From: Tepidanaerobacteraceae bacterium
GTDB lineage: Bacteria; Bacillota; Thermosediminibacteria; Thermosediminibacterales; Tepidanaerobacteraceae
DNA length: 64,000 bases
Assembly (NCBI GenBank): GCA_024655905.1
Contig: JANLFP010000005.1
Coordinates: 124,001 to 188,000, forward strand
Direction of reading: 5' to 3'
Position 1 is the stretch's first letter, and the number at the start of each line of letters is the position of its first letter. The position numbers and the translations under genes are program-made. Positions 1,626 to 17,317 of the stretch are shown here, in pieces. The notes under the pieces are model-generated. The model was not told the DNA's origin, made no database searches, and saw only the letters and a program-made list of their open reading frames with translations.

Positions 1626-3770
1626 TTAACCGATTTTAGTATTTTCGTACACAGATACATTCATCCTGTTGATTTCAAAAGTCCCCGTGTCCTCAAAAGC
1701 CGGAATAGGTTTGCCCAGCATCAGGTCATTGAGCCTTCTTACAACCAGCTCACCCCATAATCTGGGCCTCTGGGCGATTACCGATACGAGCTTTCCCTCT
1801 TTTATCAACCTTACAGTATCGGGAGTTTTATCAAACCCCACGCACTTTACACCTGTTTTCAGCTCATCATGCAGCTTTTCCACCAGCAACCACGCTTCTG
1901 AGTCCAGGCACACAAAACAATCAAAACCCGAATGCCTGCTTATAATGTTCTTCAAATTTTTAATCCTGTTATTTATATTCCCCGCATCCGATAAATCAAT
2001 ATCTAGTATTTTGATGCCGGGATATTTTGCGATTGCTTCTTTAAAGCCTTCCAGGCGCTGTTTCATGTTTTGCTGGACTTGAGCGCCGCTAACGGTAACT
2101 ATTACTCCACCCTTTTTGTCCAGCATCTTTGCAACCGCTTCTCCAACCGCTTTCCCCGCTTGATGATTGTCCGTGCCTATGAACGATTTTGCACCCGAGT
2201 CGGGCAGGTCAGTATCAAAAACAATAACATTGATTCTTTTTTTTATGGCTTTGCTCACCGCATTCCTCACTTCCGGAGCATCTATGGGCCCGAGTCCTAT
2301 TCCCGATACGCCTTTTTCTGTGAATTCTTCTATGAGTTTTGCCTGTTCTTTTGCATCTAGTTTTTTTGGCGCTGCATATTCTATGTTTATGCCTAATTTT
2401 CTGCCCGCTTCGCTGGCGCCATCGAATGTATCTTTAAAGAACGGGATGTCTACGCCCGGGATTATTGCAAAGGTGGTGGTTGCTTTTTCTGATTTGTTGA
2501 ATTTAAAGACGCTTATTTTTTTGTCAAGAGTTTTTATCAATGCGTCCAGGTTGGATGCCAGCTGTCCCATTATTTCTACTGAGTTTGTCTGGGTATACAT
2601 AAGGGATAGGATTTCCTGGGTAGATGCGGCGGTCTCTTCCGAAACGGAAGCAATATTTGTTATTGATTCGGAAAGTTTTGTTTTGTAGCTGCCCAGCTGA
2701 TTTATGCCACGTTTTACTATCATCAGATGGTTGTACAGTTCTTTGTTCGCGTCTGATATGCTTTTGAATGCCTGTTCGGTTTTGTAGACTGAGTCTATCT
2801 GGGATGCTATGGTTTCCATGGTGGAATTTATTGTGTGAGTTGTGTTTTCTACTATGTCTTGTATGTCTGATATGATTTTTACTATGTCGTTGCCGGATGC
2901 CAGGCTCTGGTCGGCAAGTTTTTTTATTTCTCCCGCAACAACTGCAAATCCTCTGCCTGCTTCGCCTGCTCTGGCGGCTTCAATGGCAGCGTTCAGCGAC
3001 AGAAGGTTTGTCTGGCTTGCGATGGATGTGATTATCTCCGTAATCCGGGTTATGTTGTGCGCCATTTGGCTCAGTTCTTTTACGCGTTCTGTTATGGCTT
3101 TTATGTTGTTTTCCGATAGCTGGCTTTTTTGTGAAAGTTCGCTTATGTTTATTTGCCCGAATTCGGTCATCTGCCTGACTGTTTCTGCTTTTTTCGTCAT
3201 CTGTTCTGCTTTTTCCGCTACCGATTCCATTTGTTTGATGAGTTCGCTCGAGATGGAAAGGCATGCTTCTGCATCCTCTGCCTGCTGGCCCGCTCCTTTT
3301 GCCACCGATTCGGATGAGGCGGATATTTCTTCTGACGCTTGCGATGTTTGGGAGGCATTGTCATTTACTACACCGGTGAGGTGTTTTACCTGTTCCAATG
3401 ACGAATTCACTTCTGAAATTATATCATGGAATTTATTAACCACAACACCGACAGCTGATGCCAGCGCTAAGAGTTCAACGTAATTATTGCCATTAAATTT
3501 TACAGTTAAATCACCTTCACCGGCATCATAAATCATCTTTGCCATTTTCTTTATGCTTTTTAAATATGCCCTTATTACAGCTATTTGTAGGATAAATCCA
3601 GTAGCTGCAAATAAAAATAATAATATCATTACACTCGTTATATGCCTTGTTTCAAATACCAAATCGTTATTTTTCACGTATGACATGGTGCTTGCTAGTA
3701 ATGTTGGCAACAGCACAAAAATAACAAAAATAACATTTATTATATTTGCAATTGAAAGACATTTTTTCAT
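1626..3770 (-). CDS. methyl-accepting chemotaxis protein with C-terminal periplasmic-binding-protein-like domain
   Basis: A 714-residue chemoreceptor. Two membrane segments (about 9-27 and 46-67) enclose only a short external loop of some 18 residues, so there is no outside sensor domain. A HAMP-like region (67-125) and the signalling coiled coil follow; the conserved hairpin tip NLLSLNAAIEAARAGEAGRG lies at about 255-275. From about residue 431 to the end is a complete sugar-binding-protein fold of the ribose/LsrB type (Peripla_BP_4). Since no membrane segment separates it from the signalling domain, it should lie in the cytoplasm. The ATG at 3770 has AGGAGG eight bases upstream; an ORF start 13 codons earlier lacks one. 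It lies downstream of the beta-galactosidase in the same direction, with a hairpin between them. The ligand is unknown. Confidence 0.9.
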   Translation of the reverse strand: MKKCLSIANIINVIFVIFVLLPTLLASTMSYVKNNDLVFETRHITSVMILLFLFAATGFILQIAVIRAYLKSIKKMAKMIYDAGEGDLTVKFNGNNYVELLALASAVGVVVNKFHDIISEVNSSLEQVKHLTGVVNDNASQTSQASEEISASSESVAKGAGQQAEDAEACLSISSELIKQMESVAEKAEQMTKKAETVRQMTEFGQINISELSQKSQLSENNIKAITERVKELSQMAHNITRITEIITSIASQTNLLSLNAAIEAARAGEAGRGFAVVAGEIKKLADQSLASGNDIVKIISDIQDIVENTTHTINSTMETIASQIDSVYKTEQAFKSISDANKELYNHLMIVKRGINQLGSYKTKLSESITNIASVSEETAASTQEILSLMYTQTNSVEIMGQLASNLDALIKTLDKKISVFKFNKSEKATTTFAIIPGVDIPFFKDTFDGASEAGRKLGINIEYAAPKKLDAKEQAKLIEEFTEKGVSGIGLGPIDAPEVRNAVSKAIKKRINVIVFDTDLPDSGAKSFIGTDNHQAGKAVGEAVAKMLDKKGGVIVTVSGAQVQQNMKQRLEGFKEAIAKYPGIKILDIDLSDAGNINNRIKNLKNIISRHSGFDCFVCLDSEAWLLVEKLHDELKTGVKCVGFDKTPDTVRLIKEGKLVSVIAQRPRLWGELVVRRLNDLMLGKPIPAFEDTGTFEINRMNVSVYENTKIG

Positions 3771-3859
3771 CCTACAATCCTCCTGATAAGGTTTAGAATA
3801 ACAAAGCAAAGAGGAAGCAATGTTATTCGATTTTTTTCAAAACCTTTTTCCGGCAATAC

Positions 3860-3897
3860 AGAAAATGGGGAGGCGCACAATGCCTCACCCATTTTCT
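3860..3897 (-). terminator. hairpin terminator after the beta-galactosidase gene
   Basis: An inverted repeat pairs AGAAAATGGGTGAGGC with GCCTCCCCATTTTCT around a seven-base loop. The U-rich part is mostly inside the stem foot, so termination may be partial. It separates the galactosidase stop (3984) from the chemoreceptor start (3770). Confidence 0.55.
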
Positions 3898-3983: not shown

Positions 3984-10217
<6,234 letters not shown>

Positions 10218-10269: not shown

Positions 10270-11274
10270 CTATTTCTTCGCGAGGTATTTCCTGATATCA
10301 ATAGACACTGCCACCACAATAACTATTCCCTTCAAGATATACTGCCAGTAAGGGTTGATGCCGATGAATGTCAGGCCGTAGTTTATAACGCCGAAGATGA
10401 GCACACCTGCTAATACTCCGGGCACTGTGCCTACGCCGCCTGTTGTGGATACGCCTCCTACAAAGCATGCTGATATGGCATCGAACTCATACATGAATCC
10501 GTAGTTGTTTGTCGCCCCACCGGTCCTGGCTGCCTCCAGCACCCCGGCAAATCCGAAGCATGCTCCCGCGATGGTATAAATGAGAAGAAGCATGAGCTTG
10601 ACGTTTATGCCTGAAACTTCTGCTGCCTGCCTGTTTCCGCCTATGGCGTAAGTATATTTTCCAAACGATGTCCTGGTAAAGACCACCCATGCAATAGCAG
10701 CAATTATTACTGCTATAATTACTATTATGGGTATTGATCCGATTAAGCCGGAACCCAAAAACGTGAAATCCTTTCTCAATCCACCTATTGGCTGGGAATT
10801 GTTTGGCGGCAAATCAAAGTAAATAGAATTTATCCCGTATGCAATTACCTGTGTTCCGAGGGTCGCAATAAATGGTGGAACACTAAACCGTGAAATTATA
10901 ATACCGTTTAACAAACCTACAGAAATTCCCGCCAGAATTGCAATCGCTATGGGCAGCCATAATGGAAGCTGAGGCAGGTTTGGGAAAAATCTCCTTGCAT
11001 AATCTGGGGTTTGAAGCATTGAAGCTGATAAAACAGCCGCCAGACCGATGACACGACCCGCGCCCAGGTCAACACCGCCAGTCAGCAATATGCAGAACAT
11101 GCCTATGGCAATAATCACCCTTGTCGACGACTGCAGGAGTATGTCCCGCAATGTTGTAAGCGACAGGAATTTAGGATTAACGGTTGCGATCGCTGCTATA
11201 AGCATCAGCAAAAATATATATATAAAATTTTGCGAAACAAATTCCGTGGTCTTTTTAATATTCTCAGTCCTCAT
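10270..11274 (-). CDS. mglC: galactose/methyl-galactoside ABC transporter permease
   Basis: A 334-residue membrane protein of the RbsC/MglC type (BPD_transp_2) with about ten hydrophobic segments and the family motif GVDLGAGRVIGLAAV near residue 65. It would form the homodimeric channel of the importer. The start is set at the second ATG (11274) because GGAGG lies five bases before it, overlapping an ATG four codons earlier. It follows the ATPase after 74 bases that hold a small GC hairpin, and precedes the beta-galactosidase by 94 bases. The name MglC rather than RbsC rests on the binding protein, which matches galactose/glucose-binding proteins residue for residue at the sugar pocket. Confidence 0.9.
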   Translation of the reverse strand: MRTENIKKTTEFVSQNFIYIFLLMLIAAIATVNPKFLSLTTLRDILLQSSTRVIIAIGMFCILLTGGVDLGAGRVIGLAAVLSASMLQTPDYARRFFPNLPQLPLWLPIAIAILAGISVGLLNGIIISRFSVPPFIATLGTQVIAYGINSIYFDLPPNNSQPIGGLRKDFTFLGSGLIGSIPIIVIIAVIIAAIAWVVFTRTSFGKYTYAIGGNRQAAEVSGINVKLMLLLIYTIAGACFGFAGVLEAARTGGATNNYGFMYEFDAISACFVGGVSTTGGVGTVPGVLAGVLIFGVINYGLTFIGINPYWQYILKGIVIVVAVSIDIRKYLAKK

Positions 11275-11348
11275 ATTAACCTCCATTCCGCCGCTAACGC
11301 TGGCGGCACAAATAGTGATGAGTTCTTATTCATGATATCCTCTCCCAG

Positions 11349-12863
11349 TCAGGCTATAAACCTCGTAGCCAATCTCATTATTTCTTCTTCGGTTGCTTTA
11401 TTGCCATCTATAATGCCGGACAGGCGGCCTTCGCACATGACCATTATTCTATCGGACATCCCCAGGAGTTCCGGCATTTCTGAAGATATCATTATTATGC
11501 TTTTGCCCTGTTTTGCCAGATCTGCAATTATCGTATATATTTCAAACTTGGCTCCGACATCGATGCCCCGGGTAGGTTCATCCAGGAGAAATATCTCAGG
11601 CTCCGTCAGCAGCCATCTGGCAAAAAGCACCTTCTGCTGATTTCCTCCCGAAAGATCTTTTATGACTTTATTTAAAGAAGGTGTTTTTACCCGCAGCATT
11701 TCTACGGCTTGAGTCACATCGTTTCTCATCTTTTTGCTGTCCAGCAGCAAATTGGGTTTAATATATTTTAAAATATTTGCTATGGAAGTGTTTTCCAGCA
11801 CCGACATCAAGGGAATTATGCCTGTCAACCGGCGATCTTCGGTCAAAAGCGCGATTTTGTGCTTTTTTGCATCTATGGGCGATTTTATGTTCACTTTTTC
11901 GCCGTTTATGAAAATCTCGCCCGACTGCACCGACCTCAATCCAAATATTGCTTCAATCAATTCAGTCCGCTGAGCGCCCACCAGGCCGCCGACTCCCAGT
12001 ACCTCGCCTTCCCTGACCTCGAAAGAAATGTTTTTAAAAGAATTCGGCATCGATGATGTGAAATTTTCAACTTTCATTTTTACTTTTCCGGGCACATTAT
12101 AACGCTTCGGGAATCTGTTGGTGAGGTCCCGGCCCACCATTTTGGAAATTATCATATCTATGTTTAACTCCGATGCAGACCAGGTCCCTATTCGCTTGCC
12201 ATCCCTCATTATCGTCACTTCGTCGGCTATCTTCAATATTTCTTCCATTTTATGGGATATGTATATAATCGATACTCCTCTTTTTTTCAAGTCGTTTATT
12301 ATTTTGAAAAGATGCTCTACTTCGTTTTCGGTGAGGGACGATGTCGGCTCGTCCATTATGATTATTTTTGAGTCATATGAAATGGCCTTTGCGATTTCCA
12401 TCAGCTGCACTTTTGAAACGGAAAGATTAGCTACTTTTTCATTCGGCTTTATGTCTATGTTCAATCCTTTTAAAAGTGCCTTTGTATCGTCATACATCTT
12501 TTTATGGTCCACAAAATTTAAAGGCCCGTATTTTCTTTGCGGAAAACGCCCCAGCCATATGTTTTCCATGACATTTCTGTACGGCACGGGATGCAGTTCC
12601 TGGTGAATCATGGAAATGCCCAGTTTGAGCGCATCGATGGGGCTGTTTATCTCTACATGGTTTTTATTCAAAACGATCTCGCCGGAGTCCGGCTTGTAAA
12701 TCCCGAAAAGGCACTTCATCAAGGTCGATTTTCCCGCACCGTTCTCTCCTACCAGTGCGTGTATGGTACCCTTTCTGACCTTCAGCGTTACATCGTCGAG
12801 CGCTTTGACTCCGGGGAATTCCTTGGATATGTTGTTCATTTCGAGTATGAATTCATCAGACAT
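11349..12863 (-). CDS. mglA: galactose/methyl-galactoside ABC transporter ATPase
   Basis: A 504-residue tandem ATPase typical of the RbsA/MglA class (about 500 residues). The N-terminal half has Walker A GENGAGKST, a signature-like LSVSKVQL and Walker B IIIMDEP; the C-terminal half has a degenerate Walker A (GGLVGAQRTE), the signature LSGGNQQKV and Walker B IFLLDEPTRGIDVG. The second half thus keeps the signature while its P-loop is altered, as is usual for this class. The ATG at 12863 is preferred over upstream in-frame codons since the protein then begins like its relatives, with AAGGTG about ten bases upstream. It lies between mglB and mglC and powers uptake at the inner face of the membrane. 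Confidence 0.93.
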   Translation of the reverse strand: MSDEFILEMNNISKEFPGVKALDDVTLKVRKGTIHALVGENGAGKSTLMKCLFGIYKPDSGEIVLNKNHVEINSPIDALKLGISMIHQELHPVPYRNVMENIWLGRFPQRKYGPLNFVDHKKMYDDTKALLKGLNIDIKPNEKVANLSVSKVQLMEIAKAISYDSKIIIMDEPTSSLTENEVEHLFKIINDLKKRGVSIIYISHKMEEILKIADEVTIMRDGKRIGTWSASELNIDMIISKMVGRDLTNRFPKRYNVPGKVKMKVENFTSSMPNSFKNISFEVREGEVLGVGGLVGAQRTELIEAIFGLRSVQSGEIFINGEKVNIKSPIDAKKHKIALLTEDRRLTGIIPLMSVLENTSIANILKYIKPNLLLDSKKMRNDVTQAVEMLRVKTPSLNKVIKDLSGGNQQKVLFARWLLTEPEIFLLDEPTRGIDVGAKFEIYTIIADLAKQGKSIIMISSEMPELLGMSDRIMVMCEGRLSGIIDGNKATEEEIMRLATRFIA

Positions 12864-12942
12864 AGCATTTTTCACCTTTTTTAATTTATTGTTCAAACGA
12901 TGCGGGGGCAAGGCAGGCGACATTGCCCCCGCATCAAAAATA

Positions 12943-14013
12943 TTATTTTGCGTCGTTTATGTTGTCCTTTGTGATCTTCTTGTAAGGCACCCATACGTAT
13001 TTGCCGTCGGTGATTTCATATCCTGTGTTCCCTTTGTCAGGAACAAGCCCCTGGGCAAGGACGTATGACAGCATGAAGGTAGCATTGCCCTGATTTTTGC
13101 CGTCATTCAACACTGTTCCGAGAAGCGTTCCATCTTCCAGAGCCTGAAGTGCGGGCGCCGTTGCATCCACGCCTACCACGGGCATGTATTTGTCACCTTT
13201 AAAGTATCCGGCCGCTTTCAACGCTTCTATAGCTCCGAGGGCCATGTCGTCGTTGTTGGCAAACACAACTTCGATTTTGTCTCCAAGGGATGCCAGAAAG
13301 GCTGCCATCTTTTCCTGGCCTTTTACGCGGTCCCACATTCCTGTGTCTTCCGCCAGCTTCTCTGTTTTAATGCCTGCATCCTCAACGGCTTTTATGGAGT
13401 ATTTTGTGCGGAGTTCCGCATCCTGGTGACCCGGTTCACCCTTGAGCATCACATACTGCATTACCCCGTCTTTATTCTTGTCGGCTTCCGGATGAGCCTT
13501 CCAGTAGTCAACTACAAGCTGACCCTGTATAGTCCCGGATTCTTCGGCTTTTGCACCCACATAATACACCTTATCCCATTTCTGCATGTCTTCCGGCAGC
13601 GGTTCGCGGTTGAAGAATACTATTGGAATGTTCGCTGTTTTTGCTTTGTCTATCAATACTCCCGCCGCGGTTCTATCCACCGGGTTTATAGCGAGCGCGT
13701 TCACTTTCTTGGTTATGAAAAGGTCTACCTTGTCATTCTGGGTGGGCTGAGAATTCTGGCTGTCAACTATGTCCACCTTAGCCTTGCCTTCAGCAGCTTT
13801 TGCGATGGTGTCGCGGACCGACGTCATGAATGTATCGTCGAATTTGTATATTGCGCAGCCGATGTAGGGCTGTGCAGAGCTCTGCTGGCTCTGGCCGCTC
13901 TGGGAGCTGCCCGAGCTCTGCTCCGATCCTCCGGACGGAGCCTTTCCGCATGCTGTTAATACCATTGAGAAAGTTAATAGAAGCGCCAAAATTAGATATA
14001 CGGTCTTTTTCAT
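12943..14013 (-). CDS. mglB: galactose/glucose-binding lipoprotein
   Basis: A 356-residue lipoprotein with signal MKKTVYLILALLLTFSMVLT followed by ACG (lipidated Cys22) and a Gly/Ser/Gln-rich tether. The mature part closely follows E. coli galactose-binding protein, including pocket residues: YKFDD (Asp14, Phe16 equivalents), FFNREP (Asn91), GHQDAELR (His152, Asp154, Arg158), MWDR (Trp183), NNDDMALGA (Asn211), VGVDA (Asp236) and LNDGKNQ (Asn256). A site for D-galactose or D-glucose is therefore well supported. The calcium loop also looks kept (DKNKDGVMQ). GGGAGAG stands nine bases before the ATG. It is first of the three transporter genes and follows the PfkB kinase by 24 bases, so sugar uptake and breakdown are in one unit. 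Confidence 0.94.
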   Translation of the reverse strand: MKKTVYLILALLLTFSMVLTACGKAPSGGSEQSSGSSQSGQSQQSSAQPYIGCAIYKFDDTFMTSVRDTIAKAAEGKAKVDIVDSQNSQPTQNDKVDLFITKKVNALAINPVDRTAAGVLIDKAKTANIPIVFFNREPLPEDMQKWDKVYYVGAKAEESGTIQGQLVVDYWKAHPEADKNKDGVMQYVMLKGEPGHQDAELRTKYSIKAVEDAGIKTEKLAEDTGMWDRVKGQEKMAAFLASLGDKIEVVFANNDDMALGAIEALKAAGYFKGDKYMPVVGVDATAPALQALEDGTLLGTVLNDGKNQGNATFMLSYVLAQGLVPDKGNTGYEITDGKYVWVPYKKITKDNINDAK

Positions 14014-14037: not shown

Positions 14038-14967
14038 TTATATTTTAATGATTGAAACCGCATTTAACATCATTTCGACATCTTTTCTTCTGCATCCGCC
14101 AGTCTCCGCTGTCATTGACTTGGCGGCGGATACCGCAACGCCCAGCTTCAGCATATCTCTAGCATCATAATTTCTTTTCATTGCCACTGCAAAAGCCGCA
14201 ATCATCGCATCACCGCAGCTTACTGTATTTACGGTATGTACTTTGGGCGCCGGCGCATGCAAGACTTCACTTTCGGATGCCATCACAGCTCCTTTTGAGC
14301 CGAGTGATATAACCGGCATTTCTACACCCATATTCTGCAGTTTTCTTACAGCAGCCCCAGCTTTTTCCGGGCTTACTATAATCATATCAAGGAGCTGTTC
14401 GGCTTCCTTTTTATTTGGTTTTATCAGTGTTGGCCCCGCCTCTATCCCCCCTTTCAAATACTCTCCGCTGGTGTCCAGTATCACCTTCTTTCCGTAATTT
14501 CTTGCTATTTCTATCAGAGTTTTATATATATTTACATCCACTCCCCTGGGAGCGCTGCCCGACATGGTTATCACATCGGCCCGCTGCAGGAGGTTTTCAT
14601 ATAAGTTTATAAATCTTTCGACATCTTTTTGAGTAAGAAGGGGCCCCGGCTCCAGAAGTTCGGTATGGACATGGGCAGCCTCATCTATAATGTTCACGCA
14701 GGACCGGGTCTCGCCTTCAATTCTTACAAATTCATGGGGTATGTTCATTTTTGAAAGTTCATGCTCTATAAAACCACCGGCAAAGCCGCCGATGAACCCC
14801 GTCGCCATTACTTCTTCTCCGAGAGCGGCAACCACCTTGGTGACATTGAGCCCTTTGCCTCCGGCGGTGTATACGGCCTCCTTAACCCTGGCCACATCGC
14901 CTATTTTGAAGTTTTCGACAATATAGGCCTTGTCGATGGATGTGTTTAATGTCACGGTAAGTATCAT
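14038..14967 (-). CDS. PfkB-family sugar phosphate kinase, 1-phosphofructokinase/tagatose-6-phosphate kinase type
   Basis: A 309-residue kinase of the FruK/LacC branch of the PfkB family. It opens with MILTVTLNTSIDKAY, has the sugar-binding AGGKGLNVTKV near residue 35-45, and the catalytic loop near residue 250 reads NTVSCGDAM, where GxGDxx is usual; the catalytic Asp is kept, with Ser and Cys before the Gly. Its likely job here is to phosphorylate a ketose 6-phosphate at C1 (tagatose-6-phosphate or fructose-6-phosphate) to make the substrate of the GatY-type aldolase encoded two genes upstream. The substrate cannot be told from sequence alone: LacC, FruK and PfkB-type 6-phosphofructokinases are closely related. 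Neighbours are the SIS isomerase (48 bases upstream) and mglB (24 bases downstream). Confidence 0.85.
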   Translation of the reverse strand: MILTVTLNTSIDKAYIVENFKIGDVARVKEAVYTAGGKGLNVTKVVAALGEEVMATGFIGGFAGGFIEHELSKMNIPHEFVRIEGETRSCVNIIDEAAHVHTELLEPGPLLTQKDVERFINLYENLLQRADVITMSGSAPRGVDVNIYKTLIEIARNYGKKVILDTSGEYLKGGIEAGPTLIKPNKKEAEQLLDMIIVSPEKAGAAVRKLQNMGVEMPVISLGSKGAVMASESEVLHAPAPKVHTVNTVSCGDAMIAAFAVAMKRNYDARDMLKLGVAVSAAKSMTAETGGCRRKDVEMMLNAVSIIKI

Positions 14968-15015
14968 ATTATCGACCTGCTCTTGCTTTTTTGTGTATTG
15001 GCATTATTATAAATT

Positions 15016-16092
15016 TCAATTTGCTTCCGCCATCTTCTTTTTAAACAGGTTTATGACATCCACCGGCGTGGGGTCCACTCCGCGGTATATGGGTGCATAA
15101 AGGGTGATAAAGTCTCCCAGATATACCAGGGAAAACATGCGGCAAAGCCGATTATTGCCTTCGGCGTAGATTTCCTTGACTTTCCCCATCCTGCCCTTGA
15201 GTATGTCCAGGGTTATATCCTTTCTCTTTTTAATTTTGGGACTATCCAGCAGGTCATCCCTCAGCATAAGAAGGTAAAATTTAGAGATCAGCTCCTGCGG
15301 CATATCCCACCCCACGGCTTCGTCGTGATGCAGGCAGGGGATGACGTTGTAAAAGGCCATGAGTTTGCTGTTTTCCCCAAACTGGTTTTTTATCCTCCAG
15401 GCCACCGAATCGTAGCAGTCAAGGGAACCGTACACCAGGGGTATATAGCCGTATAAGTCCATTGCTATCTTTTTTGCCGGGTTTTGCTCTGCCGGAGTTT
15501 CGGCTCCATACCTCTTTTTGAGGGTGGATAATAGTTGTATGAGTCCTCGGATTTCTTCTTCCTTATCCTGAATAAGGCCGAGCTTTGATAAAATCACCAG
15601 CATAGGAATGAATATATATCCTATATCACGGCGGGGATGACCTATATCGTATGGTACAATAAGGGTTGGAACGCCGTCTTTTCGGCACATTTCCGCCAGT
15701 TTCCCGCCCGAAGTAATGGCTATCATGAAAGCTCCTTTTTTTATAGCCTGCTCGTAAGCAGCCAGGGTTTCTTCGGTGTTGCCCGAATGAGAAACCACAA
15801 ATATCAGAGAATCGCTGTCCACAAAAGCAGGCACATTGTAGCCCTGATTTACGATTACCGGAATTTCCAGTTCATCAAAAAGGTATGATCTCAGGAGCCC
15901 TCCCGCCACCGACGAACCTCCGCCGGTCCCCAGGATTATAATTTCATGAAATTTTCTGCCGGGATTGGCCACTTCAAAATTTTTGCCCATATCGAGACTT
16001 TCACCGAATTGAACATCATAGTTTTCGGTGGTGATCAAAGAATCCATAGTGTCTATTTGTCGGATTTTTTCTACATCATTTAAGTCTATCAA
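15016..16092 (-). CDS. SIS-domain aldose-ketose sugar phosphate isomerase (PGI/PMI type)
   Basis: A 358-residue cytoplasmic protein of two SIS domains resembling the bifunctional phosphoglucose/phosphomannose isomerases. Visible marks are the Gly-rich ILGTGGGSSVAGGLL near residue 52, the phosphate-binding SHSGNTEETL near residue 100, the catalytic FGENSKLMAFYN and LHHDEAVGW segment (Glu and His expected to act in catalysis) near residues 240-265, and DPTPVDVINLFKKK at the C terminus. The start is TTG at 16092 with AGGAGG seven bases upstream. Between a sugar kinase and a ketose-phosphate kinase it would convert an aldose 6-phosphate to its ketose. Galactose-6-phosphate to tagatose-6-phosphate is the reaction the locus implies, but glucose-6-phosphate or mannose-6-phosphate is equally possible on sequence. 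Confidence 0.82.
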   Translation of the reverse strand: MIDLNDVEKIRQIDTMDSLITTENYDVQFGESLDMGKNFEVANPGRKFHEIIILGTGGGSSVAGGLLRSYLFDELEIPVIVNQGYNVPAFVDSDSLIFVVSHSGNTEETLAAYEQAIKKGAFMIAITSGGKLAEMCRKDGVPTLIVPYDIGHPRRDIGYIFIPMLVILSKLGLIQDKEEEIRGLIQLLSTLKKRYGAETPAEQNPAKKIAMDLYGYIPLVYGSLDCYDSVAWRIKNQFGENSKLMAFYNVIPCLHHDEAVGWDMPQELISKFYLLMLRDDLLDSPKIKKRKDITLDILKGRMGKVKEIYAEGNNRLCRMFSLVYLGDFITLYAPIYRGVDPTPVDVINLFKKKMAEAN

Positions 16093-16163
16093 TTGCAGTC
16101 CTCCTCAAGAATTCAGAATTTACCATTTTTTCTGCGTTGAAGCCCATTTTTAATCAGGTCATT

Positions 16164-17021
16164 TTAGACAGCTTTGCCGCAGCATCCGGCCAGGCGGATT
16201 TTGGATCTTACCACATCTTTCACCGCATCTTGCGCCGGTTTGAAGTATTTTCTCGGGTCCACCTCCTTCGGATTATCTTTGAAATAGTCTAATAAAGCCC
16301 CGGCGAAAGCAATCTTAATATCCGTCGCGATATTTATTTTACAGATTCCCAGCGCTATGGCTTTTTTCACCATTTCGTCAGAAACGCCGGAGCAGCCGTG
16401 GAGAACAAGCGGAACCGCCACAAGGTTTTTTATCTTCTCCAGCCTTTCAAAGTCGAGCTTGGGCTCCCCTTTATACATGCCGTGGGCGGTGCCTATGGCG
16501 ACGGCCAGGGAATCAACGCCGGTCCTTTCCACGTATTCCGCGGCCTTTTCCGGTTCCGTCATGGCAGCTTCATATTCGCTCACTGAAAGTTCTTCCTCCA
16601 CCCCGCCTACCCTGCCCAGCTCGGCCTCTACCTGTACGCCCCTGGGCCGGGCATAATCGATCACTTTCTTCACCATTTCTACATTCTGCTCAAAGGGAAG
16701 CTTTGAGCCGTCCACCATGATTGATGTGAAGCCGCCGTCTATGCATTTGAAAGCCAGATCCACATCATCTCCGTGGTCAAGGTGCAGCGCTATGGGGATA
16801 TCCGCCTCCTGCGCCGCGGTTTCTGCCATGGCATAAAGGAAATTCACGCCTGCATGCCTGCAGGTGCCGAGGGTTGCCTGCAGAATCACCGGGGCCCGCT
16901 CTTCCCGGGCGGTTTCTACCACTGCTTTAAGGGTCTCCAGATTATGTATGTTAAAGGCGGCTATGGCGTAATGACCACGCTGTGCATCTATCAACATTTG
17001 TTTGGATGAAACCAAAGACAT
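16164..17021 (-). CDS. gatY: class II ketose-bisphosphate aldolase, GatY/KbaY (tagatose-1,6-bisphosphate) type
   Basis: A 285-residue zinc aldolase that tracks E. coli GatY/KbaY almost from end to end: opening SLVSSKQMLIDAQ, FNIHNLETLKAV, HLDHGDDVD (zinc-ligand His and the catalytic Asp), EAELGRVGGVEEE, VDSLAVAIGTAHGMYKG (zinc His), LVLHGCSGV (zinc His) and the phosphate-binding KINIATDIKIAF. It should split a ketose-1,6-bisphosphate into glyceraldehyde-3-phosphate and dihydroxyacetone phosphate. The ATG at 17021 has GAAGGAGGG nine bases before it; the longer ORF upstream is only the palindromic element read through. The nearness to GatY favours tagatose bisphosphate, though fructose bisphosphate cannot be excluded. 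Confidence 0.88.
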   Translation of the reverse strand: MSLVSSKQMLIDAQRGHYAIAAFNIHNLETLKAVVETAREERAPVILQATLGTCRHAGVNFLYAMAETAAQEADIPIALHLDHGDDVDLAFKCIDGGFTSIMVDGSKLPFEQNVEMVKKVIDYARPRGVQVEAELGRVGGVEEELSVSEYEAAMTEPEKAAEYVERTGVDSLAVAIGTAHGMYKGEPKLDFERLEKIKNLVAVPLVLHGCSGVSDEMVKKAIALGICKINIATDIKIAFAGALLDYFKDNPKEVDPRKYFKPAQDAVKDVVRSKIRLAGCCGKAV

Positions 17022-17070
17022 TTTCTTTTTCCCTCCTTCACTTTTATAGGCAACTATCCAGTATATAAGG

Positions 17071-17317
17071 TGCAGTTGGTTTTTTAACGAGCGACTTGTG
17101 CAGCATCGCAAACAGCACCGGGCGCAGCGATGGGAGCCGGACCGCGGCACGAAACCAGCGGCTGATAAAAGTAGCATATATAGCAAATCATCCCAAAAAA
17201 CTCAACATGGGACAAATGGCTGAAAGTTTCATGCCGCATTTGCAGTGCCGCAAGTCCGGTCCGAAACAAGCCGCGTGCTGTCGGTGCGAACTTGAAGCGA
17301 GCAAAAAACCCTCTGCA
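17071..17317. repeat. 247-base imperfect palindromic element inside the sugar operon
   Basis: This gap between the ROK kinase and the aldolase carries no credible gene. Its ends are inverted: TGCAG-N2-GGTTTTTT at 17071-17085 against AAAAAACC-N2-CTGCA at 17303-17316. The inner arms also match in inverted orientation (TCGCA, ACAGCAC, CCGGAC, GCGGCAC in the same order over about 85 bases each side), leaving an unpaired centre of about 60 bases with its own TCCCA/TGGGA hairpin. Transcribed with the operon it would fold into one long stem. It could be a MITE-like insertion or a structured RNA; no T-box or known riboswitch core was seen. Confidence 0.7.

Follow-up and report, generated by a model that had tools for sequence, protein, structure and literature searches.

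Does a chemoreceptor whose only recognizable sensor domain lies behind its signalling hairpin look inward, and if so, what would it read there? The question is raised by a gene on the minus strand of the window (a 64,000-nucleotide stretch of a Tepidanaerobacteraceae genome), at positions 1626-3770, which forms one open frame of 714 amino acids plus stop, without an internal stop, and starts with an ATG behind AGGAGG. Pfam places an MCPsignal domain (PF00015) at residues 213-376 (E 1.2e-36, over the cut-off) and a Peripla_BP_4 domain (PF13407) at residues 436-687 (E 4.6e-49, far over the cut-off), which bears out the claim of an earlier note on this DNA that a ribose-type binding fold follows the signalling coiled coil. 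The Pfam search of the protein returned no CZB domain, and the receptor lacks the N-terminal helix-turn-helix of a LacI-type organisation. That assembly or gene calling artificially joined separate MCP and SBP genes has next to no chance of being true: nothing but the rarity of the layout among sampled relatives speaks for it, whereas the frame is single and open, a collinear paralogue sits on a different contig, and other genomes yield nine more fusions. Collinear homologues thus rule out an artefact and, since the paralogue aligns across both domains and nine further fusions exist, a chance fusion is excluded as well.

We next considered the topology of the protein. Hydropathy analysis identified two membrane segments, at about residues 7-29 (3684..3752, minus strand) and 43-66 (3573..3644, minus strand), and none after residue 66. 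The full-length AF2 model agrees, with helices at 7-29 and 37-84, a continuously helical stretch at 98-419 and the binding fold from residue 433 (the mean pLDDT is 80 and the pTM 0.41, so the relative placement of the domains is not readable from this model). By both methods the loop joining the two membrane helices measures only about 13-22 residues; the membrane segments enclose almost nothing, as previously proposed, and the ligand-binding domain that a canonical transmembrane MCP carries at this position is absent. Lysine and arginine counts of 2 at the N end, 2 in the loop and 5 after helix 2 fit a protein with both ends inside. A weak HAMP-like helix-connector-helix is suggested by AF2 at about residues 67-115 (3426..3572, minus strand; E 0.22, below the Pfam cut-off), and is followed by the adaptation and signalling bundle at residues 116-419 (2514..3425, minus strand), which is supported by Pfam, sequence motifs and AF2. 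Its conserved hairpin tip spans residues 257-270 (LSLNAAIEAARAGE), and one match to the consensus methylation motif (ASVSEETAAS) lies at 374-383; a motif scan of the Lachnospiraceae-type fusions described below found none. The C-terminal RbsB/TM0114-type binding-protein fold occupies residues 432-710 (1641..2477, minus strand; Pfam, sequence search, pocket alignment, AF2 and Foldseek) and comes after the MCP hairpin, with no export signal of its own.

The homologues of the receptor bear directly on which side of the membrane this domain occupies. On another contig of the same genome lies a 647-residue paralogue, collinear with the receptor (30% over 592 residues, E 3e-93, spanning both domains) and devoid of membrane segments even from the longest possible start. 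A scan of genome contigs, which returned mostly ordinary MCPs, also revealed a soluble MCP-PBP fusion in Candidatus Colinaster equi, and eight more fusions, with one or two N-terminal helices, were found around that genome. The same fusion therefore exists elsewhere, as the note had suggested looking for: all nine Lachnospiraceae-type proteins carry MCPsignal followed by Peripla_BP_4 behind 0, 1 or 2 N-terminal helices, and none of the 11 fusions (receptor, paralogue and these nine) has an outside domain. Because of the soluble paralogue and the 0-, 1- and 2-helix variants, a cytoplasmic sensor, with no sensor outside, is hard to escape on sequence grounds; together with the lack of any later membrane segment, they uphold the proposal that the binding domain faces inward. 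It is highly improbable that the C-terminal domain lies outside the cell, through an inverted topology or cleaved export. Export is admittedly the norm for SBPs, and lone N-terminal helices may serve as signal anchors, but the MCP hairpin has to meet CheA and CheW inside with no membrane segment behind it, helix 2 immediately precedes five K/R residues, and the three N-terminal forms include some that are fully soluble.

In the binding-domain tree, the receptor and its paralogue stand apart from the Lachnospiraceae fusions; among the closest relatives of the latter is an exported SBP encoded in a CUT2 operon (37%). A single ancient fusion, in which all fusions are held together on this tree, was rejected by the AU test (p-AU 0.0057, a value to be taken with caution given the long branches), making two separate sugar-type fusions the better reading of the sequences. 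Among relatives, the sugar-type fusion was detected in 0 of 22 genomes of the order, 0 of 26 of the class and 0 of 398 of the phylum (the phylum searches scored just 3-5 candidates per genome, so that misses are possible), and the Lachnospiraceae type was not found in the receptor's phylum sample at E 1e-36. Three of the nine Lachnospiraceae fusion genes are preceded by a glycosidase gene (GH10, arabinofuranosidase and GH1), and no CUT2 importer was seen beside any of the nine. Directly upstream of one MCP-PBP fusion is a gene for a Peripla_BP_3 binding-protein-like domain fused to a hybrid histidine kinase (L148:4751-7330, plus strand).

Modelled alone, residues 425-714 gave a pLDDT of 85.6 and a predicted two-lobed SBP fold. 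A Foldseek search of this model against the PDB retrieved GanP (glucose/galactose), the T. maritima glucose/xylose-binding protein, AraP and XylFII as the best matches, along with RbsB (TM about 0.75-0.88), in agreement with the sequence search; for the glucose/galactose-binding proteins the TM values were 0.80-0.88. Pfam likewise assigns the domain to the SBP type (PF13407, 5e-49) far above the LacI type (PF00532, 2e-6). To compare the pockets, we mapped by alignment thirteen positions that we take to be the sugar contacts of RbsB. Seven are kept (RbsB F15, F16, D89, N105, R141, D215 and Q235 correspond to F444, F445, D519, N535, R572, D647 and Q667 of the receptor), while N13, N64, R90, F164 and N190 have changed, with I442 replacing N13 and T520 replacing R90; with this mixture of kept and altered contacts, the pocket looks intact yet re-tuned. 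In the structure prediction that had been called for, the fold is intact, with many sugar-pocket positions retained, and several pocket residues are common to the receptor and the Lachnospiraceae-type fusions. The domain resembles RbsB, the T. maritima glucose-binding protein and GanP in its fold and in many first-shell pocket positions, but is preceded by neither a signal peptide nor a lipobox and, unlike RbsB-type SBPs, is fused, cytoplasmic and by its position not a transport subunit. Sugar-binding folds also signal in GanP, AraP, XylFII-LytS type sensing and E. coli RbsB/MglB-Trg, although there the binding protein is separate and outside. LacI-family regulators use the same fold to read sugars in the cytoplasm; their output is DNA binding, whereas here it would be control of CheA through the MCP hairpin.

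The genes upstream offer hints to the ligand. On the same strand as the receptor lie an exported GH2 beta-galactosidase with SLH domains (2076 residues, 3984..10214), an MglC/MglA/MglB-type galactose importer (10270..14013; in NCBIfam, MglC scores above the cut-off, MglA and MglB below) and genes for a hexose/tagatose-phosphate kinase, a phosphoglucose/phosphomannose isomerase and a tagatose-bisphosphate-type aldolase (14038..17186). The very large beta-galactosidase additionally carries laminin-G, F5/8 type C, Big_2 and three SLH domains. The receptor had been described as closing a sugar-import operon: the importer cluster does immediately precede it in the same orientation, yet a terminator-like hairpin (3859..3897, minus strand; -24.4 kcal/mol, z -5.6, ending in a short T-rich tail) parts the receptor from the beta-galactosidase, the last cluster gene, and so a transcript common to both appears doubtful. 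The paralogue gene is likewise preceded by a terminator-like site, and from these two sites it follows that the receptor genes may have promoters of their own or rely on read-through. A CUT2 importer whose SBP is RhaS-like is encoded just upstream of the paralogue gene, in a cluster that also contains an L-rhamnose isomerase above the NCBIfam cut-off. We could rule out that the receptor domain is a copy of the adjacent importer's SBP, which is MglB-like and falls elsewhere in the tree; because the pocket of that SBP differs from that of the receptor domain, galactose may not be the receptor's ligand.

Taken together, the receptor is probably a membrane-anchored chemoreceptor that carries an SBP-derived sugar sensor on its cytoplasmic C end and steers by imported sugar. 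An imported sugar or early metabolite is the best reading of its ligand, and the genomic context (a galactose importer with a beta-galactosidase here, L-rhamnose genes near the paralogue) speaks for imported-sugar sensing. The neighbouring MglBAC-type importer would bring in galactose or glucose, and the imported sugar, or an early product of it, would shut the two lobes of the binding domain. Since the C-terminal helix of an MCP returns toward the membrane-near, HAMP-adjacent end of the bundle, the paired binding domains would be located there, where they could change how the adaptation helices pack and so alter the activity of CheA at the hairpin tip. The cell would consequently climb gradients by imported rather than outside sugar, a substrate-specific form of metabolism-dependent taxis; from ligand and lobe closure to transmission via the membrane-near bundle end and the effect on swimming, these steps are what we infer. 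The genome encodes CheW-domain proteins, two of them of CheA length, as well as flagellin.

The domain might instead read a phosphorylated intermediate, such as tagatose- or fructose-phosphate, a reading we regard as unlikely, though worth keeping in mind. The sensor sits in the cytoplasm, the adjoining kinase and aldolase genes produce such compounds, and triose phosphates are the shared compounds of the clusters that hold a parallel, PhnD-type family (see below); however, the pocket positions are like those of free-sugar SBPs, and the ligands of the closest solved relatives are free sugars, namely glucose, galactose, xylose or arabinose. Still less probable, to the point of being a marginal candidate, is that the fold is a docking module whose partner is the importer, CheR/CheB or some other protein and whose signal reflects transport activity rather than a ligand. 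SBP folds by nature touch permeases and MCPs, and the importer genes adjoin the receptor, but the fold is on the wrong side for the usual SBP-permease contact, the receptor and the Lachnospiraceae forms conserve several pocket residues, and the paralogue is soluble.

The receptor's inside-out layout is not unique within its genome. The MCP genes there number 13 (from 14 matches, of which two fall in a single gene), and in four of them the C end bears a sensor fold that is ordinarily extracytoplasmic: the two sugar-type receptors, one of PhnD type (L010:574-2289, minus strand; C-terminal PF12974, E 4e-63) and one of dCache type (L004:826-2505, plus strand, and L168:8238-9929), the last with two membrane helices, a tiny loop and a cytoplasmic C-terminal dCache_1 domain (E 3e-13), a domain that is extracellular as a rule. 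All four adjoin gene clusters for uptake or catabolism (galactose, rhamnose, glycerol/dihydroxyacetone and, upstream of the dCache-type gene, a peptide/nickel-type ABC importer), unlike the three MCPs whose sensor domains are of the ordinary outside kind, an association that is a description after the fact and not a test; two small soluble MCPs also have neighbours that were named by eye as transport or catabolic genes.

The PhnD-type fusion is present in 19 of 348 phylum genomes, as frames of 565-694 residues. Like the receptor, these MCPs (L188-L202) carry an SBP fold at the C end behind 0, 1 or 2 N-terminal helices, but the fold belongs to another SBP class (PF12974) and the gene is often found in glycerol or glycolysis clusters, within glpK-glpD-dhaR-[MCP]-dhaK-dhaL or after gap-pgk-tpi-eno. 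Glycerol or dihydroxyacetone genes occur in seven of the 15 neighbourhoods read (L188-L191, L194, L198 and L199), a glycolysis cluster in two (L192, with gap, pgk, tpi and eno in NCBIfam, and L193), and neither in the remaining six. The family is a candidate triose- or glycerol-phosphate chemoreceptor, and its wide distribution and placement in glycerol and glycolysis clusters lend credibility, beyond the receptor itself, to the idea that SBP folds at the C end sense internal metabolites. Whether the two families form one general class is an even call: both SBP-class folds would have moved to MCP cytoplasmic ends at least three times (the sugar type twice, the PhnD type at least once) to read pathway-specific internal metabolites, namely imported sugars here and triose or glycerol phosphate in the PhnD family. 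The fusions are repeated and independent, and hence suggest selection for inward sensing.

MCPs with sensor domains at the C end have been described before, and a sugar-binding fold in that place is a variation on the layout. One survey (PMC7390727) describes a poorly characterised MCP subfamily whose LBDs, at the C end, belong to at least 17 Pfam types, with CZB the commonest by far; the bare MCP plus Peripla_BP_4 layout may already figure among them. As in TlpD/CZB-type chemoreceptors (PMC12871147, PMC7390727), the sensor of the receptor comes behind the signalling domain, on the cytoplasmic side, but the CZB domain is a small helical bundle that binds zinc and the receptor's sensor a full two-lobed sugar-binding fold. 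The structure of TlpD also offers a precedent, with a C-terminal sensor that packs at the corresponding, membrane-near end of the bundle (PMC12871147). A search of the open-licence literature found no paper on an MCP with a C-terminal Peripla_BP_4 or PhnD domain.

The sensors named for metabolism-dependent chemotaxis are mostly redox or energy sensors. If the class of introverted receptors holds, it would supply a direct molecular sensor for a substrate-specific form of this behaviour, which has long been on record (e.g., PMC3661575). With an inward-facing pocket the cell would judge a nutrient by its actual uptake, an idea that such receptors would open to testing by means of a single purified domain and a single deletion.

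Two further chemotaxis loci were observed. A 640-residue soluble protein (L006:466-2385, minus strand, and L177:8871-12225) contains a tandem pair of MCP signalling domains and neighbours a 481-residue protein with three CheW domains, and at L172:3754-8664 an H-NOX (HNOB) chemoreceptor gene has on either side a gene judged by eye to be glutamine synthetase-like.
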